Shown here: positions 9,952 through 47,657 of the stretch, piece after piece
How positions within the stretch are numbered: the stretch's first letter is position 1
Layout of the letters: each line of letters begins with the position of its first letter
DNA from: Chryseolinea lacunae
GTDB lineage: Bacteria > Bacteroidota > Bacteroidia > Cytophagales > Cyclobacteriaceae
Direction of reading: 5' to 3'
Assembly: GCF_016735595.1 (NCBI RefSeq)
Contig: NZ_JAERRB010000007.1
Span: 248,001 to 312,000, forward strand
DNA: 64,000 bases
Position numbers and translations under genes: made by a program
The notes under the pieces: model-generated
Databases searched by the model: none
What the model was told of the DNA's origin: nothing
The model's input: the letters and a program-made list of their open reading frames with translations, nothing else

Positions 9952-12240
9952 ATGAAGCAATACCTGAAGCATCACGAATGGCATATCATTGAAGAAGGCC
10001 TCGACCCGCACTACAACAAAATATCGGAAAGCGTTTTCAGCATCGGCAACGGCCGCATGGGACAACGCGCCAATTTTGAAGAAGAATATTCCGGCGAAAC
10101 CCTGCGCGGCAGCTATGTGGCCGGCGTATACTATCCCGACAAAACGAGAGTAGGGTGGTGGAAAAACGGCTATCCCGAATACTTTGCCAAAGTGCTGAAT
10201 GCCCCCAACTGGATCGGCATCCACATCACCATCGACAACCAGAAGCTTGACCTTGCCAAATGCAAGGTGGAAGACTTCCGCCGCGTGCTCGACATGAAGA
10301 CCGGCCTGCTGTCGCGAAGCTTCGCCGCCACGTTGCCCGACGGTAAAAAAGTGAAGGTTGAATCGAAACGTTTTTGCAGCATGGCAAACGGCGAGGTGGG
10401 CGCGATTCGTTATGCCATCACACCCCTCAACTTCACCGCCAAGACCACGCTGTCGCTGTATGTGGACGCCGATGTGGTGAACAAAGACTCCAACTACGAC
10501 GAGAAGTTCTGGGAAGAAGTGAACAAGGAAGCCACCGAAGGCAGAGCCATTGTGACGGCCCAGACTAAAAAGACATTCTTCCACGTCACCACCGGCATGC
10601 AATATGTGATCACCAACGACGGCAAGAAAGCAACGTTCGATCGCGTGAACATAGAGCTGCGCGAGAAGTATGCGGGCAACGTGATCCAGCTCGATTTGCA
10701 GGAAGGCAAAGAGCTGGTAGTCTACAAATACGCCGCCGTGCTCTCGTCCGAAAACCACGCGAAGGATGCGCTCGTTACAGCCTGCGCCAAGGTGCTGACC
10801 GAAGCCGTGGCAAAAGGTTTCGACGCGTTGTTCGAAGACCACGCGCGCGTTTGGGCGCACAAGTGGGACGGATGTGACATCACCATCGAAGGCGACATTG
10901 CCGCCCAGCAAGGCATCCGTTTCAACATCTTTCAACTCACGCAAACCTACACCGGCGAAGACGAACGCCTCAACATCGGACCCAAGGGATTTACGGGCGA
11001 GAAATATGGAGGAAGTACCTATTGGGACACCGAAGCCTATTGTTTACCCTTCTTCCTCGGCACAGCCGAAGAAAAGGTGGCTCGCAACCTGCTGGTGTAT
11101 CGCTACAAACACCTGGAGCGTGCCATCGAAAACGCCGGCAAGCTGGGCTTCAAAGACGGCGCAGCACTCTATCCCATGGTGACCATGAACGGTGAAGAAT
11201 GTCACAACGAATGGGAAATCACCTTCGAAGAAATTCACCGGAACGGTGCCATCGCGTTTGCCATCTTTGACTACATACGTTACACAGGCGACGATGCCTA
11301 CCTCGCCGAGTTCGGATTGGAAGTGCTGCTGGGCATATCACGATTCTGGTCGCAGCGCATCACATGGTCGTCTGACAGAAACCGGTTTGTGATGCTGGGG
11401 GTGACCGGTCCCAATGAGTATGAGAACAACGTGAACAACAACTGGTACACCAACACCATTGCCACGTGGACCTTGCAATACACACTCGACGCGTTAAACC
11501 TTGTGGGCAAAAGCAACCCGTCGCGTCTCGCGGAGATCATTGCAAAAACAAACTTCAAAGAGACAACAGAAACCCATCGCTGGAGAGAGATCATCGCGAA
11601 AATGCACTACCCGCACGACGAAAAACGCGGCGTGTATTTGCAGCAGGACGGCTTCCTCGACAAAGAACTGTTGCGCGTGAGCGACCTCGGAAAAGACGAT
11701 CGCCCCATCAACCAGAAATGGTCTTGGGATCGCATTCTGCGTTCGTGCTTCATCAAACAAGCCGACGTGCTGCAAGGCATATTCCTTTTCGAAGAACGCT
11801 ACGACATTGAAACTATACGTCGCAACTTCGACTTCTATGAACCGATGACGGTGCACGAATCGTCGCTGTCGCCATGCGTGCACGTGATTCTGGCGTCGAA
11901 GCTGGGCTATAAAGAACGCGCCTACGAATTTTATCTGCGCACCTCACGCCTCGACCTCGACGACTACAACAACGACACGGAAGACGGTTGCCACATCACT
12001 TCGATGGCCGGCACGTGGATGAGCATAGTGAAAGGCTTTGGCGGCATGACCGTGAAAGACGGCACACTGCACTTCAATCCATTCACACCAGATCAATGGA
12101 AATCGTATTCGTTCCGCCTGGAGTTCCGTGGTCGCGTGATCAAGGTAAAAATTTCTACCGACGCTGTGGAAACGGAATTGGAAACGGGCGAGCCGCTGGA
12201 GATATTCCTGCATGGCAAGCCGGTGTTGTTGAAGAAATAA
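9952..12240 (+). CDS. GH65 family glycosyl hydrolase, probable maltose phosphorylase
   Basis: A 762-residue GH65 enzyme with the usual order of N-terminal beta-sandwich, linker, (alpha/alpha)6 barrel and C-terminal beta domain. The catalytic acid is E489 in GPNEYENN, and the phosphate-binding segment INQKWSWDRILRS and IKQADV are conserved. The length matches maltose, trehalose and kojibiose phosphorylases. Adjacent beta-phosphoglucomutase fits a phosphorylase yielding beta-glucose-1-phosphate. Maltose is the likeliest substrate by overall likeness; trehalose, nigerose or kojibiose are alternatives. A terminator follows. Confidence 0.9.
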   Translation: MKQYLKHHEWHIIEEGLDPHYNKISESVFSIGNGRMGQRANFEEEYSGETLRGSYVAGVYYPDKTRVGWWKNGYPEYFAKVLNAPNWIGIHITIDNQKLDLAKCKVEDFRRVLDMKTGLLSRSFAATLPDGKKVKVESKRFCSMANGEVGAIRYAITPLNFTAKTTLSLYVDADVVNKDSNYDEKFWEEVNKEATEGRAIVTAQTKKTFFHVTTGMQYVITNDGKKATFDRVNIELREKYAGNVIQLDLQEGKELVVYKYAAVLSSENHAKDALVTACAKVLTEAVAKGFDALFEDHARVWAHKWDGCDITIEGDIAAQQGIRFNIFQLTQTYTGEDERLNIGPKGFTGEKYGGSTYWDTEAYCLPFFLGTAEEKVARNLLVYRYKHLERAIENAGKLGFKDGAALYPMVTMNGEECHNEWEITFEEIHRNGAIAFAIFDYIRYTGDDAYLAEFGLEVLLGISRFWSQRITWSSDRNRFVMLGVTGPNEYENNVNNNWYTNTIATWTLQYTLDALNLVGKSNPSRLAEIIAKTNFKETTETHRWREIIAKMHYPHDEKRGVYLQQDGFLDKELLRVSDLGKDDRPINQKWSWDRILRSCFIKQADVLQGIFLFEERYDIETIRRNFDFYEPMTVHESSLSPCVHVILASKLGYKERAYEFYLRTSRLDLDDYNNDTEDGCHITSMAGTWMSIVKGFGGMTVKDGTLHFNPFTPDQWKSYSFRLEFRGRVIKVKISTDAVETELETGEPLEIFLHGKPVLLKK

Positions 12241-34556: not shown

Positions 34557-36356
34557 ATGAGACGACCACTTTTTTGCCTGCTCACATTGTCTATTTTTAT
34601 CGGCTGTTCAACGCCTCCAAAAGAAAAAATCCCACCGCTTGCCACCATGGAAAAATCGTCTGGTAAAATCGTCATCTACCAATTGATGACCCGCTTGTTT
34701 GGAAACAAAAAGACCGTGAACAAACCCTACGGCACACGCGACGAAAACGGCGTGGGCAAGTTCAACGACATCGACGACGCGGCATTGAAATCGATCAAAG
34801 ACATGGGCATCACCCACGTGTGGTACACCGGCGTGCTGGAACATGCCGTGCTTACCGACTACACACCCTTCAGCATTCCCCTCGACGACGCCGATGTGGT
34901 GAAGGGCCGCGCGGGTTCGCCCTATGCCATCAAAGACTATTACGACGTGAATCCCGACCTCGCCATGAGCGTTCCCAACCGCCGCGAAGAGTTTGATCGC
35001 CTGCTGGAACGCACCCACCAGGCCGGCCTGAAAGCCATCATCGACTTTGTGCCCAACCACGTGGCGCGACACTATCACTCCGATGCCAAACCCACCGGCG
35101 TGAAAGACCTGGGCGAAGGCGACGACAAGGCCGTGGCCTTCCGCGCAGCCAACAATTTCTATTACCTGCCGGGACAATCCTTCCAGGTTCCCAAAGACTA
35201 TGTGGCGCTTGGCGCCAACAATACCTTTCCCACCAAAGACGGCAAGTTTGACGAAACACCCGCCAAGGCCACCGGCAACAACGTGTTCTCGGCCGCGCCG
35301 GGCCTGCACGACTGGTTCGAAACGGTGAAGCTCAACTATGGTGTGGATCAACAAAATCAAAAACACTTCGACCCCATACCCGACACGTGGGTGAAGATGA
35401 AAGACATCCTGCTGTACTGGACAAGCAAAAAAGTGGACGGCTTCCGGTGCGACATGGCCGAGATGGTGCCCGTTGAATTCTGGGGCTGGGTCATTCCGCA
35501 GGTACGCGCCGCGAATCCCGACATCATCTTTATCGCCGAAGTATATAACCCGAACGAGTATCACAACTACATCGAGAACGGCAAGTTCAACTACCTCTAC
35601 GACAAGGTGCAACTCTACGACACGCTGCGCCTTCTGGTGCAGGGCAAGGCAACAACACCCTCGATCCATGCCATTCAGCAACACCTGTCGGGCATCAACG
35701 ACAACATGTTGCACTTCCTGGAGAACCACGACGAGCAACGCGTGGCATCACCGTTCTTTGCGGGCGACATGTGGAAGGCCGCGCCCGCCATGGTGATCAG
35801 TGCCACCATCGATCGCGGGCCCGTCATGATTTACTTCGGACAGGAAGTGGGAGAGCCGGGTGCGGGCGCCGCAGGTTTTCAGGCCAACGACGGCCGCACC
35901 ACCATCTTCGACTACTGGGGCGTGCCCGAACACCAGAAGTGGATGAACGGTGGCAAGTTTAACGGCGACTCGCTGAGCGCCGAACAAAAACAACTTCGCC
36001 AATTCTATGCCGATGTTTTATCGCTGGCCGGCAGAAACATCGCGCTCACGCAAGGCGAATACCTCGACATCACGGCGCACAACATCAACGCCGGAAACTT
36101 CACGGGCAACACCAGTGCGTTTCTGCGCTACTCGGGCACGGAACGCCTGCTGGTGTTGAACACCTTCAACGCCACCACGCAGGAAATCAAAGTGCAGCTG
36201 CCCGCATCTGCCGTGACGGCGCTGGGGCTCGACACGGAGGGAAGCTACATTGCACGCGACCTGTTGTGGCGCGAAGCCGAGGTGGGCTTCAGCAAAGACT
36301 TCACCTTCACACTCACGTGCAAACCCTACAGCTCCTACATTCTGAAGATTAAATAA
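34557..36356 (+). CDS. GH13 alpha-amylase family lipoprotein
   Basis: A 599-residue lipoprotein (lipobox FIGC, C17) with a GH13 barrel. The nucleophile is D299 (DGFRCDMAEMV), the acid/base E328 (FIAEVYN) and the third aspartate D392 (ENHDEQR); region I reads DFVPNH. A large insertion with DYYDVNPDLAMSVP precedes the barrel core, and a C-terminal beta domain ends the protein. It probably hydrolyses alpha-1,4-glucans or cyclic dextrins in the periplasm or at the outer membrane. A second lipoprotein GH13 starts 8 bases after it. Released maltose or maltodextrin could feed the maltokinase encoded downstream. Confidence 0.9.
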   Translation: MRRPLFCLLTLSIFIGCSTPPKEKIPPLATMEKSSGKIVIYQLMTRLFGNKKTVNKPYGTRDENGVGKFNDIDDAALKSIKDMGITHVWYTGVLEHAVLTDYTPFSIPLDDADVVKGRAGSPYAIKDYYDVNPDLAMSVPNRREEFDRLLERTHQAGLKAIIDFVPNHVARHYHSDAKPTGVKDLGEGDDKAVAFRAANNFYYLPGQSFQVPKDYVALGANNTFPTKDGKFDETPAKATGNNVFSAAPGLHDWFETVKLNYGVDQQNQKHFDPIPDTWVKMKDILLYWTSKKVDGFRCDMAEMVPVEFWGWVIPQVRAANPDIIFIAEVYNPNEYHNYIENGKFNYLYDKVQLYDTLRLLVQGKATTPSIHAIQQHLSGINDNMLHFLENHDEQRVASPFFAGDMWKAAPAMVISATIDRGPVMIYFGQEVGEPGAGAAGFQANDGRTTIFDYWGVPEHQKWMNGGKFNGDSLSAEQKQLRQFYADVLSLAGRNIALTQGEYLDITAHNINAGNFTGNTSAFLRYSGTERLLVLNTFNATTQEIKVQLPASAVTALGLDTEGSYIARDLLWREAEVGFSKDFTFTLTCKPYSSYILKIK

Positions 36357-36364
36357 ACGCCACC

Positions 36365-37939
36365 ATGTTCGCTCGTTTCACCTGTGTTGCTTTGTTCTGT
36401 TCATGGGCGCTCTGGTCGTGCAAGCCGCCGGAAGTGAACGTGGCCACGTGGCCGCAAGGGGTAAAGTATGAAGTGTTTGTGCTCTCGTTTGCCGACGGCA
36501 ACGGCGATGGCAAAGGAGACCTGAAAGGACTAACGGCCAAGCTTGACTATCTGCAAGACCTCGGTGTGAACGGCATTTGGCTGATGCCCATCATGAACGC
36601 GCCGTCGTATCACAAGTATGATGTGATGGACTACAAAAGCATTCATGCAGACTATGGCACACCCGAAGATTTCAGAGCGTTTATCGCCGAAGCACACCGC
36701 CACGGCATCAAGGTGATCATCGACCTCATTCTGAACCACACCGGCACAGAGCATCCGTGGTTCAAAGGGGCCACGCAGGGAAAAAACAATCCCTACCGCC
36801 ACTACTACGTGTGGGCAAAGAAAGATTCGATACGCACACAGATGGCCAAGAAAACAACGTCGTTCGATTCGGACAACATCACCCAATGGCACCCCGTGAA
36901 CGGCGACACGCAGGCAGAACATTACTACGGCTATTTCTGGGCCGGCATGCCCGACCTCAACTTCGACAACCCCCGCGTGAAGCAGGAATTTATGGAGATT
37001 GGAAAATTCTGGTTGTCAGACATGCAAGTGGATGGCTTTCGCCTGGATGCAGCACGTCACATCTTTCCGACAGACAGAGCAGCCGACAACCACGCCTTCT
37101 GGCAGGAGTTCCGGCAGGCCATGCAATACCTCAAACCCGATGTCTACCTGGTGGGCGAGGTGTGGGCCGATGCAAAAGAGGTTGCTCCCTACCTGAAAGG
37201 ATTGCCGTCGCTCTTCAACTTCGACATGGGCTATGCCATCACCGACGTGGTGAATGCCGGGCGAGACACCATGAAGTTGATTGAACGCTACAAACGCATC
37301 AGCGACTATTACCGCGCGTCGACACCCGAATATACCGACGCGATCTTTTTGAAAAATCACGACCAGAATCGAATCCTGAGCGAGTTGGGTGGCGACCCCG
37401 GAAAAATGCGGGTAGCCGCAGGGATATTAATGACGTTGCCCGGCACACCCTATGTGTATTACGGCGAAGAGATTGGCATGCTGGGCAAGAAGCCCGACGA
37501 ATACATACGCGAACCTTTTGTGTGGGCTACAGACGACAAAGCGAAGGAAAATCTGCAAACATCGTGGGAACAACCCAGGTATTCGACGGCGCAAACCGTT
37601 ACACCGGCGAGCCTGCAACAAAACGATCCGGCATCGCTCTACAACGCCTACAGAAATCTTATTCACTTCAGAAATTCAAGTAAAGCCCTTACCTTCGGAA
37701 CCATCGACCCATCGGGTGTGAACGTGGCCGAAGTGGTGAGCTTCAAACGGACACACGAAGGCGAAACGGTGCTGGTGCTGCACAACGTTTCGGATGTGGA
37801 AGTAACGGTGACGCTGGAGAACAGCAACGCCGCATTCAATACGATTGTGTTCGACAGCAACGGAACAACAAAACTAAACAACGGCGAGCTGACCTTGCCG
37901 GCATATGCAACGGTAATTTTGAAACCTAAACAGGCATGA
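36365..37939 (+). CDS. GH13 alpha-amylase family lipoprotein
   Basis: A 524-residue lipoprotein (lipobox LWSC, C19). GH13 regions are complete: DLILNH, nucleophile D228 (DGFRLDAARHI), acid/base E265 (LVGEVWA), D333 (KNHDQNR). The barrel resembles oligo-1,6-glucosidase/neopullulanase and alpha-amylase members of Bacteroidota. Its stop overlaps the glgE start in an ATGA at 37936, so the two are probably translationally coupled. It and the preceding gene supply external glucan breakdown, while the next genes are cytoplasmic. Confidence 0.9.
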   Translation: MFARFTCVALFCSWALWSCKPPEVNVATWPQGVKYEVFVLSFADGNGDGKGDLKGLTAKLDYLQDLGVNGIWLMPIMNAPSYHKYDVMDYKSIHADYGTPEDFRAFIAEAHRHGIKVIIDLILNHTGTEHPWFKGATQGKNNPYRHYYVWAKKDSIRTQMAKKTTSFDSDNITQWHPVNGDTQAEHYYGYFWAGMPDLNFDNPRVKQEFMEIGKFWLSDMQVDGFRLDAARHIFPTDRAADNHAFWQEFRQAMQYLKPDVYLVGEVWADAKEVAPYLKGLPSLFNFDMGYAITDVVNAGRDTMKLIERYKRISDYYRASTPEYTDAIFLKNHDQNRILSELGGDPGKMRVAAGILMTLPGTPYVYYGEEIGMLGKKPDEYIREPFVWATDDKAKENLQTSWEQPRYSTAQTVTPASLQQNDPASLYNAYRNLIHFRNSSKALTFGTIDPSGVNVAEVVSFKRTHEGETVLVLHNVSDVEVTVTLENSNAAFNTIVFDSNGTTKLNNGELTLPAYATVILKPKQA

Positions 37940-39882
37940 TCATAACAAAAGGAAAATCGCGCGTCGTCATCGAAAATGTTCAACCCCAGGTGGATGGTGG
38001 ATTGTATCCCGCCAAGCGCACCATCGGCGAACGCGTGACGGTGACCGCCGATATATTTGGTGATGGCCACGACCACATCCGTGCCCACATGCTCTACAGA
38101 AAAGAAGGAGCAAAACAATGGAATCACCAGGAGATGACCCCGTCGTATAACGACACATGGTTTGCCTCGTTCACGGTAACCGAAAAAGGCGCCTACGAAT
38201 TCACCGTCATGGCCTGGGTCGATCACTTCGACACGTGGTATGACGGCTTCAAGAAAAAAGCGACGGCCAAGGTCGATGTGCACGTAGAACTTCAGGAAGG
38301 CGTGAACCACCTGAAGGCACTGGGTGGCGACAAGAACGATACACTTAAAGCCGCCATCGGCCAACTGCAAGGCGACTACACCGCGGCCATCCATTTCGTG
38401 CAGGGTGAAGCCTTTGGAAGGCTGGTGCACGAGCATCCCCTCATTCAACACGAAACCACCTATGACAAAACGCTTCGCGTGGTGGTGGAGCACGTCAAGG
38501 CAAACTTCAGCGCCTGGTATGAACTCTTTCCGCGGTCGGCATCGCTCGACGGCAAGCATGGCACCTTCAAGGATGTGATCAAGCTGTTGCCGCGCGTTTC
38601 GGCCATGGGCTTCGACGTGCTCTACCTGCCGCCCATTCATCCCATTGGAAAAGTGAACCGCAAGGGCAAGAACAACAACGTGCGCGCCGAACTTGGCGAA
38701 CCCGGTTCGCCCTGGGCCATCGGCAACGACGAAGGCGGACACAAAGCCGTTCACGCCGAGTTGGGAACCTTGGTCGACTATAAGAAGTTGATCGAAGAAG
38801 CAAAGAAGCTCAACATCGACATCGCACTCGATCTGGCCTTTCAATGCGCACCCGATCATCCCTATGTGAAAGAACATCCCGAATGGTTCAAGCAACGGCC
38901 GGATGGTTCGATTCAATACGCTGAAAATCCTCCCAAAAAATATCAGGACATCTATCCATTCAATTTTGAAACCGACCAGTGGATGGAATTGTGGGTGGAG
39001 CTGAAGTCGGTGATCACCTTCTGGATTGAACAGGGCGTGAAAATTTTTCGCGTTGACAATCCTCACACCAAACCCATTCCGTTCTGGGAGTGGGCCATTG
39101 CCGAAGTGAACAAGGAATATGAAGACATCATCTTTCTTGCCGAAGCATTTACCAAACCAAAAGTGATGGCGTCGCTGGGAAAGATCGGCTATACACAGAG
39201 CTACACCTATTTCACCTGGCGCGTCTACAAGTCGGAAATTATTGAATACATGAACGAGCTGGTGCACGGCCCTTCACGAAACTATTTCCGCCCGAACTTC
39301 TGGCCCAACACACCCGACATTCTGCCCTTTCACCTGCAACAACAAGGCGAAAACATTTTTATACTCCGCCTGGCTCTTGCCGCTACACTATCGTCGAACT
39401 ATGGTGTGTATGGGCCCGTGTATGAATTTTATGAGAACGTGCCGGTGCAGGGGAGGGAAGAATATCACGACTCCGAAAAATATGAAGTGAAGCACCACGA
39501 CTGGAAGAAAACCAGTCGCGCCACCGACATCATGTATATGATCAACAAAGCGCGCAAAGAAAACGCCGCATTGCAGTCTACATGGAATCTGAATTTCTGC
39601 ACCATCGAAAACGTGAACCTGCTGGCCTACATCAAAGCCACCGACGATCTGTCGAGCATCATCCTCACGGTGGTGAACCTTGATCCCAACGGGCGGCATT
39701 CGGGCTATGTGCAATTGCCCAAGAGCCTGTTGAAACTGGGCGATCGCATCAATGTGAAAGTGCACGACCTCATCACCGACGAACACTATACCTGGACGCA
39801 GGAATGGAACTATGTGGAGCTGGATCCCTACAAGTTGCCCTTCCATTTATTCAAAGTTGAAGTTCACGAATCCTATCTCTAA
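37936..39882 (+). CDS. glgE: alpha-1,4-glucan:maltose-1-phosphate maltosyltransferase
   Basis: A 648-residue GH13_3 enzyme that transfers maltosyl units from maltose-1-phosphate to an alpha-1,4-glucan. The N-terminal beta domain (RVVIENVQPQVDGG, PAKRTIGE) and helical insert are followed by the barrel with nucleophile D374 (FRVDNPHTKP), acid/base E403 (FLAEAFT) and D461 (NTPDIL). The D-E-D spacing of 29 and 58 fits characterised GlgE proteins. No signal peptide. The start codon overlaps the preceding GH13 stop by four bases and TreS-maltokinase follows after 6 bases. Confidence 0.94.
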   Translation: MIITKGKSRVVIENVQPQVDGGLYPAKRTIGERVTVTADIFGDGHDHIRAHMLYRKEGAKQWNHQEMTPSYNDTWFASFTVTEKGAYEFTVMAWVDHFDTWYDGFKKKATAKVDVHVELQEGVNHLKALGGDKNDTLKAAIGQLQGDYTAAIHFVQGEAFGRLVHEHPLIQHETTYDKTLRVVVEHVKANFSAWYELFPRSASLDGKHGTFKDVIKLLPRVSAMGFDVLYLPPIHPIGKVNRKGKNNNVRAELGEPGSPWAIGNDEGGHKAVHAELGTLVDYKKLIEEAKKLNIDIALDLAFQCAPDHPYVKEHPEWFKQRPDGSIQYAENPPKKYQDIYPFNFETDQWMELWVELKSVITFWIEQGVKIFRVDNPHTKPIPFWEWAIAEVNKEYEDIIFLAEAFTKPKVMASLGKIGYTQSYTYFTWRVYKSEIIEYMNELVHGPSRNYFRPNFWPNTPDILPFHLQQQGENIFILRLALAATLSSNYGVYGPVYEFYENVPVQGREEYHDSEKYEVKHHDWKKTSRATDIMYMINKARKENAALQSTWNLNFCTIENVNLLAYIKATDDLSSIILTVVNLDPNGRHSGYVQLPKSLLKLGDRINVKVHDLITDEHYTWTQEWNYVELDPYKLPFHLFKVEVHESYL

Positions 39883-39888
39883 AATCGC

Positions 39889-42800
39889 ATGAGCAATCCT
39901 CTCAAGAACAACGATGCGCTTTGGTTTAAAGATGCCATCATCTACGAAATCTCTGTTCGTGCCTTTTTCGACAGCAATGCCGATGGCATCGGCGACTTCC
40001 AGGGCATCATTCAAAAGCTCGACTACCTCGAAGACCTCGGCATCAACACGCTGTGGCTGCTGCCATTCTATCCATCGCCGCTGAAAGACGACGGGTTCGA
40101 CGTGATTGATCACTGCGACGTGCACCCCGACTATGGCACGCTGGCCGACTTCAAACAATTTTTGAAGGAAGCACACCGTCGCGGCATCCGGGTGATTACA
40201 GAGTTGATCCTGAACCACACATCCGACCAGCATCCCTGGTTTAAGCGCTCACGCAAGGCCAAGGCAAACTCGCGCTACCGCGACCTCTACGTGTGGAACG
40301 ACACGGCAGAAAAATACAAAGAAGCCCGTGTCATGTTCACCACCGAAGAGTCGACCAACTGGACGTGGGACTCCGAGGCCAAAGCCTACTACTGGCATCG
40401 TTTCTATCGCCACCAACCGGAGCTGAACTTCGAGAACCCCGAGGTGCAGTTGGAGATGATCAAGATTGTGGACTTCTGGATGAAGATCGGCGTGGATGGT
40501 TTCCGCCTTCCGTCTGTGCCCTTTCTCTTCGAAGAAGACGGCACCAGCTGCGAGAATCTTCCCCAGACCCACGTGTTTCTGAAACGCCTTCGGGCGCACA
40601 TCGACAAACACTATAAAAACCGCATACTCATTGCCGAAGCCAACCTCTGGCCCGAAGACGCCGCCACTTATTTTGGCGACAACGACGAGTGCCACATGAA
40701 CTTCCACTATCCGCTGATGCCACGCATGTTTCTGGCGCTGCGCACAGAAGATAGCTATCCTATCATCGACATCATTGAACAAACACCGGCAACCCCTGTG
40801 AGCAGTCAATGGGCGGTGTTTCTCCGGAACCACGACGAGCTTGGTTTGGAAATGGTGACGGAGGAAGAGAAGGATTATCTCTTCAAAGCCTACGCCAATG
40901 ACGCAAACACAAAATTCAACGTAGGCATTCGCCGCAGGCTAGCGCCACTGCTGAACAACGACCGGCGCAAGTCGGAGCTGTTGCACTCGATACTCTTCTC
41001 GCTGCCGGGTACACCGGTGCTCTACTACGGCGACGAGATTGGAATGGGCGACAACGTGTATCTGGGCGACCGCTTTGGCGTGCGCACACCCATGCAGTGG
41101 AACATGAACCTGAATGCAGGCTTCTCCACAGCAAACCCGCAGCGTCTTTATCTCCCCATCATCACCGACCCGTCATACCGCCACGAATCGGTTAACGTGG
41201 CTACGCAGGAAGAAAATCCATCGTCGTTTTTGTGGTGGATGAAAAACATCATGGCCATGCGCAAGCGCCTGAACATTTTTGGCCGCGGCGAAATGAAATT
41301 TATCGAGAGCACCAACGCCAAAGTGCTTTCGTTTGTGCGCACCTTCGAAAAAAACAGGATCATCGTGGTGGCCAACCTCTCGCAGTTCTCGCAGGCCACA
41401 ACGCTCAACCTGGGCGAATACAAAGGCTGCGACATCACCGAGGTGTTCAGTCAGAACCGTTTCATGAGTGTTGACGAAGGCGACTATTCCATCACCATCG
41501 GCCCCTATGGCTACTTCTGGTTTCAGGTGGACACTGCCGAGAAGAAAGAAAAATCGGAAGCCAGCGGTGAACTGCCATTGGTGAAAACCGAAGTGTCGTG
41601 GGAAAAACTTTTCGACAACTACAACGAAGTGCGGGTGCTGGAGCGCAAGATTCTGCCGCCGTTCATGAAGAAATGTCGCTGGTTTGGAGGCAAGGCCAAA
41701 GTGGTGAGCAAAGTGAGCATCAACAAAACCATTGCCCTGAAAGTGGAAGGCGACACACACTTCCTCACCGTGCTGGAAGTGCACTATGTGCAACGCCTGC
41801 CCGAGTTCTACTTCCTGCCGTTGACCTTCCTGCCATCCGACAGTATCCTGGAACGTGTGGAGTACACCGTGCAAAGTGTAGTGTGTCGTGCCGAAATTCA
41901 AGGCAAGGCCGGCTTCATCATGGACAGCAGCTACGACAAGGTGTTCCGCGACTTCCTGTTTGTGAGCATGGAGAAAGAAACCAAAGTGCGCGACGACGAA
42001 GGCGGAACGTTGGAATTCAATTCGAGCGTGTTTGCAAAAATCGATGTCAGCAAAGACGTTGACTCGAAGATCCTGAAGTCTGACCAGAGCAACACAGCCA
42101 TCATTTATAACGACCAGTACTTCTTCAAATTCTATCGCAAGCTGGAGAAGGAAATGAATCCCGAGCTGGAAATTGTGCGCTTCCTTTCCGAGCACACCAC
42201 CTTCCAGAATTCGCCGCGCTATGCGGGAAGCATTGAATATCACGACAGCGACAACAACGTGACGGTGTTTGGCCTGTTGCAGGAGAAAGTAGAAAACCAG
42301 GGTGAAGCGTGGACCATGTCCGTCGATTCGGTAGGACGTTTCTATGAACGTGTGATGGCCAAAGCCAAGTCGGTGAAATTGCCGAAGCTGGAAAATCGCT
42401 CGTCCATCAAGTTTGAAGAAGCACCGGAAGTGATACAGGAATTTATCGGCCGCGGATTCTACGAGCGCATCGTCCGTCTGGGACAACGCACGGCGGAGAT
42501 GCACATTGCGCTGGCATCCGATCAATCGAACCCCGCCTTTGCACCCGAAACGTTCACACCCAACTATCAGCGTTCTATGTATTCGTCGCTGCGCAAGCTG
42601 GTGCGCGATCGTTTCAACCTGTTGGAAACAACACTGTCGAAACTGCCTCCCGAAGTGCAGGACATTGCTAAAAAGGTATTGGCGCTGGAAGACAAGATAC
42701 TCGAGTGCTTCAGCGAAGTGTATCAGATAAAAATCAAAGCCATCAAAACCCGTATCCACGGCGACTTCCACATGGGGCAGGTGTTGTTCACCGGCAAAGA

Positions 42801-43227
42801 TTTTGTGATCATCGACTTTGAAGGAGAGCCCGGATTTTCGTTTAGCGAACGTCGTCTCAAGAAGAACCCGTTGAAGGATGTGGCGGGCATGATGCGTTCC
42901 ATACACTATGCCGCTTTTGGAAAAATATTGCTCAACGAAAACTACCGCGACCGCGACCTGGAGTTCCTCGAATCGTGGGCCGAGCAATGGCAGCACTATG
43001 TGGGCCGCTTCTACCTGGGCGCCTACATGGAGCGCATGGGCATGGGCACCACGCTGTCGCAGGAAGATGACGTGCTTATTCGTACCTTCCTGCTAGAGAA
43101 GGCGGTCTATGAACTGGGCTATGAGTTGAACGGCCGTCCCGACTGGACCATCATACCGCTGCGCGGAATTTATTATCACATGAAACGCTACCAGGAAGAG
43201 AAAGAAGAACGGAAGAAGAAAGGATAA
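39889..43227 (+). CDS. treS: TreS-maltokinase fusion with the TreS nucleophile replaced by proline
   Basis: A 1112-residue fusion. Residues 1-550 are a trehalose synthase (GH13_16) barrel: WFKDAIIYEISVRAF, acid/base E250 (LIAEANLW) and D316 (RNHDELGLEM) are present. The nucleophile position, normally Asp in GFRLDAVP, reads GFRLPSVP with P208; the P208-E250 spacing of 42 equals that of mycobacterial TreS. The canonical mutase reaction should therefore fail. Residues about 575-1105 are a maltokinase with CRWFGGKAK, the catalytic loop RIHGDFHMGQ and IIDFEGEP, all intact, so ATP-dependent maltose-1-phosphate formation is expected. It lies between glgE and glgB. The dead barrel may serve as a scaffold. 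Confidence 0.9.
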   Translation: MSNPLKNNDALWFKDAIIYEISVRAFFDSNADGIGDFQGIIQKLDYLEDLGINTLWLLPFYPSPLKDDGFDVIDHCDVHPDYGTLADFKQFLKEAHRRGIRVITELILNHTSDQHPWFKRSRKAKANSRYRDLYVWNDTAEKYKEARVMFTTEESTNWTWDSEAKAYYWHRFYRHQPELNFENPEVQLEMIKIVDFWMKIGVDGFRLPSVPFLFEEDGTSCENLPQTHVFLKRLRAHIDKHYKNRILIAEANLWPEDAATYFGDNDECHMNFHYPLMPRMFLALRTEDSYPIIDIIEQTPATPVSSQWAVFLRNHDELGLEMVTEEEKDYLFKAYANDANTKFNVGIRRRLAPLLNNDRRKSELLHSILFSLPGTPVLYYGDEIGMGDNVYLGDRFGVRTPMQWNMNLNAGFSTANPQRLYLPIITDPSYRHESVNVATQEENPSSFLWWMKNIMAMRKRLNIFGRGEMKFIESTNAKVLSFVRTFEKNRIIVVANLSQFSQATTLNLGEYKGCDITEVFSQNRFMSVDEGDYSITIGPYGYFWFQVDTAEKKEKSEASGELPLVKTEVSWEKLFDNYNEVRVLERKILPPFMKKCRWFGGKAKVVSKVSINKTIALKVEGDTHFLTVLEVHYVQRLPEFYFLPLTFLPSDSILERVEYTVQSVVCRAEIQGKAGFIMDSSYDKVFRDFLFVSMEKETKVRDDEGGTLEFNSSVFAKIDVSKDVDSKILKSDQSNTAIIYNDQYFFKFYRKLEKEMNPELEIVRFLSEHTTFQNSPRYAGSIEYHDSDNNVTVFGLLQEKVENQGEAWTMSVDSVGRFYERVMAKAKSVKLPKLENRSSIKFEEAPEVIQEFIGRGFYERIVRLGQRTAEMHIALASDQSNPAFAPETFTPNYQRSMYSSLRKLVRDRFNLLETTLSKLPPEVQDIAKKVLALEDKILECFSEVYQIKIKAIKTRIHGDFHMGQVLFTGKDFVIIDFEGEPGFSFSERRLKKNPLKDVAGMMRSIHYAAFGKILLNENYRDRDLEFLESWAEQWQHYVGRFYLGAYMERMGMGTTLSQEDDVLIRTFLLEKAVYELGYELNGRPDWTIIPLRGIYYHMKRYQEEKEERKKKG

Positions 43228-43260: not shown

Positions 43261-45231
43261 ATGTCAAAAAAAACAAAGACCCCTGACCCTATACCCGCAA
43301 GCTTTTCACTGCTCACCGAGTTCGATGTGCACCTGTTTAAAACCGGCAAGCACTACAAGCTCTACGACAAGCTGGGCGCACATCGCGTCAGCCACGAAGG
43401 GCAGGAGGGAACCTACTTTGCCGTGTGGGCACCAAACGCCGTAGCCATCTCGGTCATCGGCAACTTCAACGCCTGGAAAGACGGACAACACAAATTGTTT
43501 GCACGTTGGGATGAGTCAGGCATTTGGGAAGGATTCTTCAGCGACATCAGTCACGGCGAGGCCTACAAGTATGCCATTCATTCCAACAGTGGCGAGTATC
43601 TGGAAAAGGCCGATCCCTTCGCCACGTTTGCCGAGATGCCACCCATGACGGCCAGCATTGTGTGGGCACCCAAGTTTGAGTGGAAAGACGAAACCTGGCT
43701 GAACGAACGCAAAGCCAGCGCAGGAAAACCAAAGCCTTATTCGGTCTATGAAGTTCACTATGGATCGTGGCGCCGAAAAATTGAAGAAGGCGACCGTTCG
43801 CTCACATACCCCGAGATGGCCATAGAACTGGTGAACTATGTGAAGGACATGCAATTCACACACGTTGAATTTCTGCCGTTGATGGAGCACCCGTTCTATG
43901 GCTCGTGGGGCTACCAACTGACGGGCTACTTCGCGCCAACGAGCCGCTATGGAAGCCCCGAAGATTTTATGTACCTCATTGACAGTTTTCACCGAGCCGA
44001 CATCGGCGTGTTGCTCGACTGGGTACCCTCGCATTTTCCGGGCGACGCACACGGCCTTTTCAACTTCGACGGCACACACCTCTACGAACATGCCGATCCG
44101 CGCAAAGGCTTTCACCCCGATTGGAAGAGCTATATTTTTAACTATGGCCGCAGCGAAGTGCGTTCGTTTCTCATCAGCAACGCCGTGTACTGGCTCGACA
44201 AATTTCACATCGACGGTCTGCGTGTAGACGCCGTGGCGTCGATGCTTTACCTGGACTATTCGCGCAAAGCCGGCGAGTGGATCCCCAACGATCATGGTGG
44301 CAACGAAAACATTGAAGCCATCACGTTCCTGAAAGAAATGAACGAAGTGGTGTATGCCGCTTTCCCCGACGCTGTGACCATCGCCGAAGAATCGACCTCC
44401 TGGACCGGCGTGTCGCGTCCCACCTACATTGGCGGATTGGGCTTTGGCCAGAAGTGGATGATGGGCTGGATGCACGACACGTTGCAGTATTTCAAACACG
44501 AACCCATTCACCGGAAATATCACCAGAACGAGATCACGTTCAGCATCATGTATGCGTTCACCGAAAACTTTATGCTGCCCCTGTCGCACGACGAGGTGGT
44601 GCACGGCAAGGGATCGCTCATTGGCCGCATGCCCGGCGACGAATGGCAACGGTTTGCCAACCTGCGTCTGATGTTCACCTACATGTTTGCCCACCCGGGA
44701 ACAAAGCTATTGTTCATGGGCGGCGAGTTCGCGCAATCGTCGGAATGGAATCACGAGAAAAGCCTCGACTGGCATTTACTGGCCTATGACGTGCACAAAG
44801 GAATCCAGCAATTGGTGCGCGATCTGAACCAGTTCTACCGAAACGAGCCGGCGCTCTACCAGCATCAATTCGAGCAAAAGGGATTTTCGTGGGTCGACTA
44901 CGACGATCGCGAAAACAGCGTGATGGTGTTTCAACGGCAGGGCGAAGGCAAAGAAAACGTTCTCATTATCGTTTGCAATTTCACACCCGAGACACGCCGA
45001 CACTATCGCGTAGGTGTTCCGTATCGCGGCAACTGGAAAGAAGTGTTTAATTCCGATCAGAAAAAGTATGCCGGTAGCGGAGTGCTCAACGAAGGTACAT
45101 TGCTGACTTCTCCCGTAAAATATCATGGTAGGGATTATTCGATTTCATTAACTTTACCTCCGCTGGGAATTTCTATATTGCGATTGGAGAAAGAAATTTC
45201 AGAATTTGATCTGAACGATCTGGGAACCTAG
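43261..45231 (+). CDS. glgB: 1,4-alpha-glucan branching enzyme
   Basis: A 656-residue GH13_9 enzyme that makes alpha-1,6 branches in the glucan polymer. The N-terminal CBM48 domain (VWAPNAVAISVIGNFNAW) is followed by the barrel with D323 (GLRVDAVASM), E376 (TIAEEST) and LSHDEVVHGKGS. Branching-enzyme hallmarks MLYLDYSRK and GGEFAQSSEWNH are present. It lies 33 bases after the TreS-maltokinase gene. With GlgE it completes an ADP-glucose-independent glycogen route; no glgA or glgC is in the window. Confidence 0.95.
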   Translation: MSKKTKTPDPIPASFSLLTEFDVHLFKTGKHYKLYDKLGAHRVSHEGQEGTYFAVWAPNAVAISVIGNFNAWKDGQHKLFARWDESGIWEGFFSDISHGEAYKYAIHSNSGEYLEKADPFATFAEMPPMTASIVWAPKFEWKDETWLNERKASAGKPKPYSVYEVHYGSWRRKIEEGDRSLTYPEMAIELVNYVKDMQFTHVEFLPLMEHPFYGSWGYQLTGYFAPTSRYGSPEDFMYLIDSFHRADIGVLLDWVPSHFPGDAHGLFNFDGTHLYEHADPRKGFHPDWKSYIFNYGRSEVRSFLISNAVYWLDKFHIDGLRVDAVASMLYLDYSRKAGEWIPNDHGGNENIEAITFLKEMNEVVYAAFPDAVTIAEESTSWTGVSRPTYIGGLGFGQKWMMGWMHDTLQYFKHEPIHRKYHQNEITFSIMYAFTENFMLPLSHDEVVHGKGSLIGRMPGDEWQRFANLRLMFTYMFAHPGTKLLFMGGEFAQSSEWNHEKSLDWHLLAYDVHKGIQQLVRDLNQFYRNEPALYQHQFEQKGFSWVDYDDRENSVMVFQRQGEGKENVLIIVCNFTPETRRHYRVGVPYRGNWKEVFNSDQKKYAGSGVLNEGTLLTSPVKYHGRDYSISLTLPPLGISILRLEKEISEFDLNDLGT

Positions 45232-45263: not shown

Positions 45264-47657
45264 TTGGAAAAGTATATATGCATCCATGGGCATTTCTATC
45301 AGCCGCCGCGCGAGAATGCCTGGCTTGAAGTAATTGAAGTTCAAGACTCGGCCCATCCGTATCACGATTGGAACGAGCGCATCACGGCCGAGTGTTATGC
45401 CCCCAACACGGCATCGCGCATTCTCAACGAGAAGGCCGTCATCAAGAACATCATCAACAACTACTCGCGGCTCAGTTTCAACTATGGCCCCACGCTGCTC
45501 TCGTGGATGCAAACCAGCGATCCGGAAACGTATGCGGCCATCATTGACGCCGACAAGGAGAGTGTAAAACATTTCAGTGGACACGGATCTGCCATCGCGC
45601 AAGTCTACAACCACATGATCCTGCCGCTCGCCAACACCCGCGACAAGGAAACACAAATCATCTGGGGCATCCGCGATTTTGAATATCGTTTTCACCGGAA
45701 ACCCGAAGGCATGTGGCTGGCCGAAACAGCAGTCGACATCGAGTCGCTGGAACTGCTGGCCAAGCACGACATCAAATTCACCATCCTGGCCCCACGACAG
45801 GCAAAGGCCATCCGCAAAATAAAAGACGTTGAGTGGACTTCGGTCGACAACTCAACACTGGACACACGCCGTCCCTACAAATGCAATTTGCCCTCGGGAA
45901 AAAGCATCGCGCTGTTTTTCTACGACGGCGACATCGCCCAGGGCGTGGCCTTCAACGGCCTGCTGAACGACGGCAAAAAATTCGCACACCGCCTTCTCGA
46001 CGGCTTCGATCAGGCCCCAGAAGAACCTCAGCTGGTGCACGTGGCCACCGACGGAGAAACCTATGGTCACCACCACAAGCATGGTGAAATGGCCCTGGCG
46101 TTTTGCCTCGACTACATTGAGCGCCACAAACATTCGCACCTCACTAACTATGCTGAATTCCTTGCGAAATTTCCGCCGACCTATGAGGCCGAGATTCACG
46201 AGAACAGTTCGTGGAGCTGTGTGCACGGCATCGAGCGCTGGCGCAACAACTGCGGTTGCAGCGGCGGCACACCCGATTGGCACCAGCAGTGGCGCAAGCC
46301 CCTTCGCGAAACACTCGACTGGCTTCGCGACGAGTTGGCCAAAGTATATGAAGCCGAAGCGTCCAAAATTCTGAAAGATCCCTGGAAGGCGCGGGAAGAC
46401 TACATCGGCGTGATTCTCCGCCGCACCGACGACACGATTCTGAAATTTCTGAAAGACCATTGCATCCAGGATGTGGAGCACAATCGTGTGTTCCGCATGA
46501 TGGAAGTGCAACGCAACGCCATGCTGATGTATACCAGCTGTGGTTGGTTCTTCGACGAGATATCGGGCATTGAAACGACGCAGATCATGCAGTACGCCTG
46601 TCGTGCCATGCAGCTGGTGAGCCAGATTGTGGAAGTGAATCTGGAAAAAGAATTTTTGCAACGCATGCAAGCTGCGCCCAGCAACCTGCCTGCGCTGGAG
46701 AATGGAGCGGAGGTCTATCGAAAGTTTGTGTTGCCCTCCAAAACCAACCTGCAACGCGTGGGCATGCACTATGCCGTGGCATCTATTTTTGAAGAAGATC
46801 CAGAGTCGTTTCCGGTATTTAACTACACCACGCACAACGACGTGTTTATCCGCAAGGAAGCGGGCGAGCAGAAACTTGTGCTGGGCATCACCAAAGTGCG
46901 CTCGAATGTGACGCGCTCGGAAAAGAAATTTGCCTTCGCCGTAATCTACATGGGCCAGCACAACATCATTGGCAACATCTCCATCGACATGGAAGAAGAC
47001 AAGTTTGCCAGCATGCAGGTGCGCATGATCGATGCTTTTGAAGAAGCCCGCCTGGGCGACATCATTGGCTTGATGCAAACCTACTTTGGTCCCGACAAAT
47101 ACACCATCTGGCAACTCTTCCAGGACGAAAAACGCAAGGTGTTCAACCTCATCACGTATCAAAGCATGCGTGATCTTGAGAACTCCCTGCGACGCATCTA
47201 CAACCGCGACTATCCGCTGGTGATGGCGCTGGCCAACAACGACGCGCCTATACCCAATGCCTATCGCACCACGTTTGAATACATCCTCAACGCCGACCTC
47301 ACACGCAGCTTCGAATCCGAACGCATCAACGTGCGCCAGGTAGAGCGCATCATGAACGAGCTGGTGCAATGGAAACTTCACATCGAAGACACCGGAAAGG
47401 TGGAGCGTCTGGCGGGCGAGAGCGTGTTCAAGGAAGTGAAACGCATCAGCGCCGAGGGCGACAACTACAAACGCATCGAGAAGCTAAACCGGTTGTTCCC
47501 GCTCTTGCGGAAATTCGACCTCAAGCCCAACCTGTATAAGAGCCAGAACCTTTACTTCGAGATCTCCGTCCGCAATCGTGAACACGACGGGCATTCGGCA
47601 GAGTGGATCAAACAATTCAATTTGCTGGGCGAAAACCTCAGCGTGAAGCTGGAATAA
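45264..47657 (+). CDS. GH57 family glycoside hydrolase with DUF3536 domain
   Basis: A 797-residue protein. The start is TTG at 45264, because the first conserved GH57 region (CIHGHFYQPPREN) begins at residue 6 and no ATG precedes it. The likely nucleophile lies in GMWLAETAVD and the second acid in ATDGETYGHHHKHGE. A DUF3536 domain fills the C-terminal half. GH57 members are amylases, branching enzymes or 4-alpha-glucanotransferases; the DUF3536 group is uncharacterised as far as I know. The place directly after glgB suggests action on the same glucan. No signal peptide is present. Confidence 0.9.
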   Translation: MEKYICIHGHFYQPPRENAWLEVIEVQDSAHPYHDWNERITAECYAPNTASRILNEKAVIKNIINNYSRLSFNYGPTLLSWMQTSDPETYAAIIDADKESVKHFSGHGSAIAQVYNHMILPLANTRDKETQIIWGIRDFEYRFHRKPEGMWLAETAVDIESLELLAKHDIKFTILAPRQAKAIRKIKDVEWTSVDNSTLDTRRPYKCNLPSGKSIALFFYDGDIAQGVAFNGLLNDGKKFAHRLLDGFDQAPEEPQLVHVATDGETYGHHHKHGEMALAFCLDYIERHKHSHLTNYAEFLAKFPPTYEAEIHENSSWSCVHGIERWRNNCGCSGGTPDWHQQWRKPLRETLDWLRDELAKVYEAEASKILKDPWKAREDYIGVILRRTDDTILKFLKDHCIQDVEHNRVFRMMEVQRNAMLMYTSCGWFFDEISGIETTQIMQYACRAMQLVSQIVEVNLEKEFLQRMQAAPSNLPALENGAEVYRKFVLPSKTNLQRVGMHYAVASIFEEDPESFPVFNYTTHNDVFIRKEAGEQKLVLGITKVRSNVTRSEKKFAFAVIYMGQHNIIGNISIDMEEDKFASMQVRMIDAFEEARLGDIIGLMQTYFGPDKYTIWQLFQDEKRKVFNLITYQSMRDLENSLRRIYNRDYPLVMALANNDAPIPNAYRTTFEYILNADLTRSFESERINVRQVERIMNELVQWKLHIEDTGKVERLAGESVFKEVKRISAEGDNYKRIEKLNRLFPLLRKFDLKPNLYKSQNLYFEISVRNREHDGHSAEWIKQFNLLGENLSVKLE

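Follow-up and report, generated by a model that had tools for sequence, protein, structure and literature searches.

What does a fusion of trehalose synthase and maltokinase (TreS-Mak) do when its synthase half has lost the catalytic nucleophile? The question is raised by an open reading frame (ORF; positions 39889-43227, forward strand) in a stretch of 64,000 nucleotides from Chryseolinea lacunae (assembly GCF_016735595.1, contig NZ_JAERRB010000007.1, positions 248,001 to 312,000), here called the window and numbered from its first base. The ORF encodes a protein of 1112 amino acids (aa; VDGFRLPSVPFLFEED) in which region II of the TreS half reads GFRLPSVP, with Pro208 in place of the nucleophilic Asp. 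A first-pass annotation had remarked on this replacement and proposed that the barrel is a non-catalytic scaffold or sugar sensor for the kinase, maltose being supplied by neighbouring amylases. The answer favoured here, to which we give a probability of about 0.78 on the strength of sequence comparisons, is that the protein would act as a maltokinase seated on a non-catalytic TreS barrel, within a GlgE pathway that would not depend on trehalose.

The nucleophile position in the fusion and its relatives

Both halves of the protein were recognised by curated profiles, with 827 bits against a cut-off of 678.35 for TIGR02456 (TreS, EC 5.4.99.16, GH13_16) and 434.5 bits against 375.05 for TIGR02457 (Mak/Pep2, EC 2.7.1.175). 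Pro208 was aligned to the region II Asp of the solved TreS structures 5x7u, 5h2t and 3zo9 with no gap nearby, and the alignment of relatives placed it likewise, thus bearing out the replacement first reported. The acid/base Glu250, the third acid Asp316 and the site residues H110, R206 and H315 are all present, and the distance of 42 residues from Pro208 to Glu250 was confirmed; the D225-E267 spacing in the TreS from which the set of catalytic residues was taken is also 42 (PMC10992939). An AlphaFold2 model had the TreS fold, with a mean predicted local distance difference test score (pLDDT) of 83.2, a predicted template modelling score (pTM) of 0.58 and a template modelling score (target) of 0.91 to 5x7u. 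The kinase half, which aligned also with the maltokinase of Mycobacterium tuberculosis, does retain RIHGDFHMGQ and IIDFEGEP, and by motif and spacing its P-loop Ser734 and its Lys747, Asp959, Gln964 and Asp976 correspond to Ser136, Lys149, Asp305, Gln310 and Asp322 of the M. vanbaalenii maltokinase, from which the roles of these residues were taken (PMC4306142). By descent, then, the protein is a TreS-Mak fusion which, as read from its sequence, lacks the catalytic feature of a TreS and has those of a maltokinase.

The same position was then compared among relatives. The family of the window was represented by 148 genomes, 18 of which carried an orthologue at 68% identity or more, and 390 genomes of the order added four; these 22 carriers, which belong to eight genera and are not independent, have Pro (nine), Ser (seven), Ala (four) or Gly (two) at the site and Asp in none, whereas Asp was found in all 45 other fusion rows of the alignment, some of them duplicates. 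Chryseolinea serpens DSM 24574 (94%), the closest named relative among the matches listed and placed in Cytophagales, Fulvivirgaceae by NCBI, has Pro as well. For a wider set, a scan of named genomes gave at least 495 relatives, of which the best 80 were kept, and two of 140 loci (L139 and L174) were dropped for having no full-length fusion. The resulting 139 full-length rows comprise 128 distinct fusions, drawn as matches to the window protein and so not an even sample: 50 in clade A (the Cytophagales part), 10 in clade C (the Saprospirales part, from Saprospiraceae and Phaeodactylibacter, an order thinly covered, since the class search matched 11 of 395 genomes at E 1e-250) and 68 others, called live below. 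Neither Asp nor Glu occupies site 208 in any of the 60 members of A and C, which have P, S, A or G in the former and T or N in the latter, whereas all 68 live fusions have Asp. Further marks of these 60 are Ser or Asn at 209 (59/60) and Phe at 212 (55/60).

In a tree of 67 rows made without the catalytic motif columns, A and C formed one clade of 25 rows with a Shimodaira-Hasegawa-like approximate likelihood ratio test (SH-aLRT) value of 100, and one change of TreS state suffices to explain the distribution. Two separate origins of the nucleophile-less (dead) proteins were therefore rejected, the tree, a quick one with SH-aLRT as its only support, uniting the rows of both. These alignments and this tree place a single loss of the nucleophile in the common ancestor of a clade of Bacteroidota. 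A sequencing error or a single decaying gene, a negligible prospect, was likewise rejected: passing from an Asp codon (GAY) to CCG takes three base changes, which agrees with the earlier dismissal of a single read error, and all 60 distinct clade members are without Asp, their reading frames being long, open and subject to purifying selection. Searches of one open-access library, which does not cover subscription papers, listed no report of TreS-Mak fusions whose TreS lacks the nucleophile.

Selection on the barrel and its genomic setting

Omega was estimated on pairs by NG86 for the barrel and the kinase half separately. Values were finite for the dead barrel in nine of 14 clade-A pairs (0.007-0.029) and for the live barrel in four of 11 pairs (0.010-0.051), and are only rough because several synonymous distances (dS) exceeded 1. 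The non-synonymous distance (dN) of the dead barrel was below that of its own kinase half in 11 of the 14 pairs. These estimates indicate strong purifying selection on the dead barrel. Live proteins are invariant at 206 positions of the barrel; counting those kept in 90% or more of the rows, clade A retains 162 of them and clade C 164, the figures for the kinase half being 40 of 41 and 39. H110, R206, N252, H315, D316, R395 and R399 are unchanged in all 50 clade-A rows and E250 in 49; Y75, T319 and D396, near the old site, have changed. A scan of the barrel for newly conserved acids passed 15 columns, of which only 141, 358, 473 and 548 are acidic in at least 88% of the rows of both sub-clades, none of them in the catalytic motifs; at positions 77 and 81 acids predominate, but in clade A alone. 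A replacement nucleophile among acids newly conserved in both sub-clades was thus rejected.

The kinase residues S734, K747, H957, D959, Q964 and D976 are intact in 58 of the 60 clade members, a kinase being counted as altered by any change at these six positions. L128 (Q964R, also E250D) and L158 (D959N) are the only clade-A rows with an altered kinase; they are also the only two of 50 from whose operon glgE has gone, and searches of the two genomes, which are metagenome-assembled genomes (MAGs) of unknown completeness, gave no GlgE. Genes of about 1100 codons persist there beside glgB and the GH57 gene (L128, 9962-13309; L158, 2404-5712).

In the window the fusion gene (treS*-mak) is fourth in a tight same-strand run of amylA, amylB, glgE, treS*-mak, glgB and a GH57 gene (Table 1), with gaps between frames of 8, -4, 6, 33 and 32 bases. 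Among the 22 whole-genome loci, amylA, glgE, glgB and the GH57 gene surround it in every case, glgE, maltokinase and glgB thus always standing in one operon, and amylB in nine. Over the wider set, glgE lies within 6 kb in 48 of 50 clade-A rows, and amylA was seen in 41 of the 42 locus rows with at least 5 kb upstream, the exception being L062, whose amylA was detected by tblastn only. The GH13 motifs are intact in amylA (50/50 rows) and amylB (27/27), and by a crude pattern a lipobox-like start is present in 47 of 50 amylA and 20 of 27 amylB rows, the window's amylB not being among the latter (duplicates occur among all these rows); the amylases would therefore act outside the cytoplasm and require an uptake step. 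Two of the 10 clade-C rows have glgE next to the fusion gene, and GlgE was found in five of the six clade-C genomes searched. Near the operon, positions 9952-12237 of the window hold a possible further enzyme of maltose or trehalose, presumably a GH65 disaccharide phosphorylase.

Table 1. Features of the fusion gene and its operon in the window (positions from the first base of the window).
Feature	Positions	Strand	Remarks
amylA, GH13 amylase, lipoprotein-like	34557..36356	+	constant clade partner
amylB, second GH13 amylase, SusG-like C-terminal domain	36365..37939	+	in 9/22 loci
glgE, GH13 maltosyltransferase	37936..39882	+	PF11896 182.9 bits; overlaps amylB by 4 bases
TreS-Mak fusion gene	39889..43227	+	1112 aa; TIGR02456 827 bits, TIGR02457 434.5 bits, both over cut-off
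TreS (GH13) barrel and C-terminal domain, residues 12-547	39922..41529	+	predicted non-catalytic
Pro208, codon CCG, nucleophile position	40510..40512	+	structure alignments, relatives' alignment
Glu250, acid/base position	40636..40638	+	kept
Asp316, third acidic position	40834..40836	+	kept
Maltokinase half, residues 569-1094	41593..43170	+	match to 4o7o (maltokinase), E 5.3e-35
Asp959 of HGD, putative catalytic base of kinase	42763..42765	+	kept
Asp976 of DFE, magnesium ligand of kinase (by motif match)	42814..42816	+	kept
glgB, branching enzyme	43261..45231	+	
GH57-DUF3536 protein	45264..47657	+	domain make-up as Pontibacter PoGH57

The presence of other genes for trehalose and glycogen was assayed in the 22 carrier genomes of clade A. 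All of them have GlgE, and none has a GlgA match over the curated cut-off, partial matches being present. The suggestion that a second, intact TreS be looked for was followed with a positive result: the host genome (7.9 Mb) holds a second TreS-Mak with an intact GFRLDAVP (G000:C28:288831-292100), and such a copy occurs in eight of the 22 carriers, the other 14, from genera g17, g24, g33, g44 and g65, having no other TreS over the cut-off. TreY over its cut-off was found in all eight carriers with a second TreS and in none of the 14 without, OtsA in eight and two, and MalQ in seven and none, respectively, so that 12 of the 22 carriers have no other TreS, TreY, OtsA or MalQ over the cut-offs. 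Twelve of the 14 single-copy carriers, being without TreY and OtsA, therefore appear incapable of trehalose synthesis by either of the two routes searched, and a supply of maltose from trehalose through an active TreS of the operon is not predicted. A fusion of TreY and MalQ seems present in the host genome (G000:C1:1283079-1287245) and in two others (G074:C6:1749431-1753633 and G136:C1:5079484-5083626), in each of which the two matches adjoin and report an equal open-frame length, about 1440-1460 codons.

Published accounts have the GlgE pathway begin with trehalose, or with ADP-glucose via GlgM, and treat TreS-Mak fusions as bifunctional (PMC11046441). Several genera of the dead clade appear to run it from maltose instead, with the trehalose step genetically removed and the domain conserved. 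TIGR02456 passes the nucleophile-less domain over its cut-off in all 22 clade-A genomes, and automatic annotation by this profile will name it active; as a probably non-catalytic domain is named maltose alpha-D-glucosyltransferase in this way, reconstructions of trehalose metabolism that rely on it may be mistaken in such organisms.

A probable maltokinase on a predicted non-catalytic barrel, and the alternatives

In the proposed pathway, maltose would arise from the breakdown of starch or maltodextrin by the exported amylases and possibly by the GH57 enzyme inside the cell, the Mak half would phosphorylate it to maltose 1-phosphate, and GlgE and GlgB would turn this into glycogen, trehalose being bypassed. 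The GH57 enzyme, for whose Pontibacter counterpart a 4-alpha-glucanotransferase activity has been suggested (PMC11206854), might stand in for MalQ in the single-copy carriers; with the Pseudomonas aeruginosa enzymes, maltose made by MalQ feeds the Mak half and TreS is bypassed (PMC8084333). The barrel would serve the kinase as a docking and oligomer platform, by analogy with the TreS tetramer of mycobacteria, on which Pep2 is docked through the C-terminal beta-sandwich (PMC6509496, PMC11046441); it may perhaps bind sugar too, and its role is the least certain step.

Known systems resemble this arrangement in part. The bifunctional fusions of Estrella lausannensis and P. aeruginosa PAO1 share the two-domain architecture and the partners glgE and glgB, but showed both activities, whereas the window's fusion lacks the nucleophile and its operon adds an amylase and a GH57 gene (PMC7935935, PMC8084333). 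In the mycobacterial TreS:Pep2 complex (5jy7; PMC6509496) the C-terminal beta-sandwich of TreS docks the maltokinase as well, but the two are separate proteins and TreS keeps its Asp (3zo9 alignment). Live operons of glgE, treS/mak and glgB in other Bacteroidota (Pontibacter, Salinimicrobium and genera of the window's family) have a like gene order, but their fusions keep Asp, none of the 32 distinct glgE-adjacent ones has amylA beside it, and TreY and OtsA are present in all 15 genomes of that family in which a live fusion is linked to glgE. As GH13 barrels kept for a non-catalytic role, rBAT (SLC3A1), which was among the structure matches, and 4F2hc, both known as non-enzymatic GH13 barrels, offer a parallel, although they are subunits of animal transporters and not fused to a sugar kinase. 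The dead clade offers a naturally occurring test of the non-catalytic benefits that a maltokinase may draw from a TreS barrel. The mycobacterial studies did not resolve this point: activation of Pep2 by TreS was seen with the M. tuberculosis pair but not with the M. smegmatis pair (PMC6509496).

Several observations weigh against a trehalose-independent maltokinase on an inert barrel. The full-length gene persists in both members that lost glgE, and in a Saprospirales MAG (G882) where no GlgE was found the kinase site of the dead-TreS copy is nevertheless intact. The intact TreS-Mak of eight carriers means that trehalose could feed GlgE there, and free-standing maltokinases exist (see below), so that such a kinase needs no TreS barrel in principle. 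The median ratio of barrel to kinase dN was about 0.66 in the 14 dead pairs against 0.34 in the 11 live ones; by this measure the barrel is strongly kept in the dead clade, yet relatively less constrained than the live one. The model is of low confidence in some of the loops that line the former active site (314-320, 338-351 and 382-401), and a GH13 enzyme with a changed triad, BmaN1 (third Asp to His, nucleophile kept), can be active (PMC5347038). As to the source of maltose, the earlier proposal that it comes from the neighbouring amylases fits the presence of amylA in all 22 whole-genome loci and its intact motifs in 50 of 50 rows, but the export signal would call for an uptake step, and no maltose importer was seen beside the operon among the unlabelled neighbours of 115-520 aa inspected by eye in ten clade-A loci. 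Neighbours of 429-436 aa in clade-A loci resembled what we take to be nucleoside transporters.

Among the other roles considered for the barrel, that of a sugar sensor is the strongest, although we hold it to be somewhat doubtful: maltose, trehalose or a maltooligosaccharide would still bind in the old -1 site and tune the kinase. The pocket residues are near-invariant in the 50 clade-A rows while the nucleophile position drifts, and Asp mutants of related GH13 enzymes have been crystallised with sugars, according to the titles of 4ha1 and 3wy3, in which D200 and D202 are presumably the nucleophiles. However, about 79% of live-invariant barrel positions (162/206) are kept anyway, so that a conserved pocket is little out of the ordinary, and changes have occurred at Y75, T319 and D396 near the site. 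These changes, the drift among P, S, A, G, T and N, a constraint lower, relative to the kinase half, than in live fusions and the persistence of the barrel in both members that lost glgE would all suit a vestige, merely tolerated baggage or a folding aid with no function of its own; this is unlikely, since omega, at about 0.02, is no higher than in live barrels, the kinase half has the larger dN in 11/14 clade-A pairs, and the clade extends over two orders. The non-catalytic part of the first-pass proposal is thus supported by the conserved loss, the purifying selection and the constant place in a glgE operon behind an amylase gene, with scaffold and sensor both as possible roles.

Two alternatives would leave the barrel an enzyme. 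A new chemistry with the remaining acid/base and no covalent intermediate could account for the retention of E250 and D316 and for Ser or Asn instead of Ala at 209 (49/50 clade-A and 10/10 clade-C rows), but is improbable, as the site residues differ by sub-clade (P/S/A/G against T/N); we know of no GH13 precedent for such a reaction. That trehalose synthase activity persists in the barrel, a different residue acting as nucleophile, we consider more improbable still: the profile score lies far over its cut-off (827 against 678 bits) and BmaN1 shows that changes of the triad can be tolerated (PMC5347038), but no acid newly conserved in both sub-clades lies within the catalytic motifs, and 12 of the 14 single-copy carriers are without TreY or OtsA over the cut-offs.

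Live TreS-Mak fusions with an altered kinase

The mirror image of the dead clade was found among the live fusions, 22 of 68 having at least one of the six kinase positions altered: L161, L163 and L164 (Leeuwenhoekiella), L165 and L169 (Gramella/Christiangramia), L171, L178, L184-L186, L190-L193, L195-L197, L199-L201, L100 and L101. Two of them, L101 and L178, differ at S734 only and may still work. The three from Leeuwenhoekiella carry the Asp-to-Asn change that, as D339N, abolished the activity of the M. tuberculosis maltokinase (PMC4306142). For none of the 22 does the available flanking sequence show glgE within 6 kb; L196 and L197, whose flanks are the shortest, belong to genomes without GlgE.

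Counted over all distinct fusions, the kinase is altered in none of 82 that have glgE within 6 kb but in 21 of 35 non-adjacent ones with enough flank, the remaining 11 of 128 having too little flank to be put in either group, and L099 being miscounted as non-adjacent (its glgE, overlooked by gene picking, was seen by tblastn). A fusion away from glgE need not lose its kinase site, however, as 14 non-adjacent rows are intact. The kinase state changed at least eight times on the tree; only four to five phylogenetically independent pairs are informative on a link between its loss and distance from glgE, all of them in the expected direction, and by this test the link is not significant (median p 0.0625).

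GlgE is present in 13 of the 22 genomes that carry an altered fusion, and 12 of these 13 also hold an intact free-standing maltokinase, which in ten of them lies no more than about 3 kb from glgE. These free-standing enzymes, of 494-568 aa and with an intact site, thus occur in 12 Bacteroidota genomes; in the 13th GlgE genome (G086) a second fusion, cut by the contig end, lies beside glgE. In the other nine, genome searches gave no GlgE and no second maltokinase match.

These patterns suggest tentatively, at somewhat less than even odds, that Bacteroidota split the functions of TreS-Mak without breaking the protein, one old lineage losing TreS activity alone and turning into a maltokinase independent of trehalose (in the window's family, inside amylase-glgE operons) and several others losing the kinase site alone, with the dead half regulating or assembling the live one. 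The TreS-dead barrel would then possibly be a maltose-sensing allosteric domain, and the lineages that lost the kinase would have become TreS enzymes away from glgE, some genomes holding one of each. Such a pair was found in Phaeodactylibacter luteus (G881), where L134 is TreS-dead with an intact kinase and L232 TreS-intact with an altered one, and the MAG G882 holds a like pair, L136 and L233.

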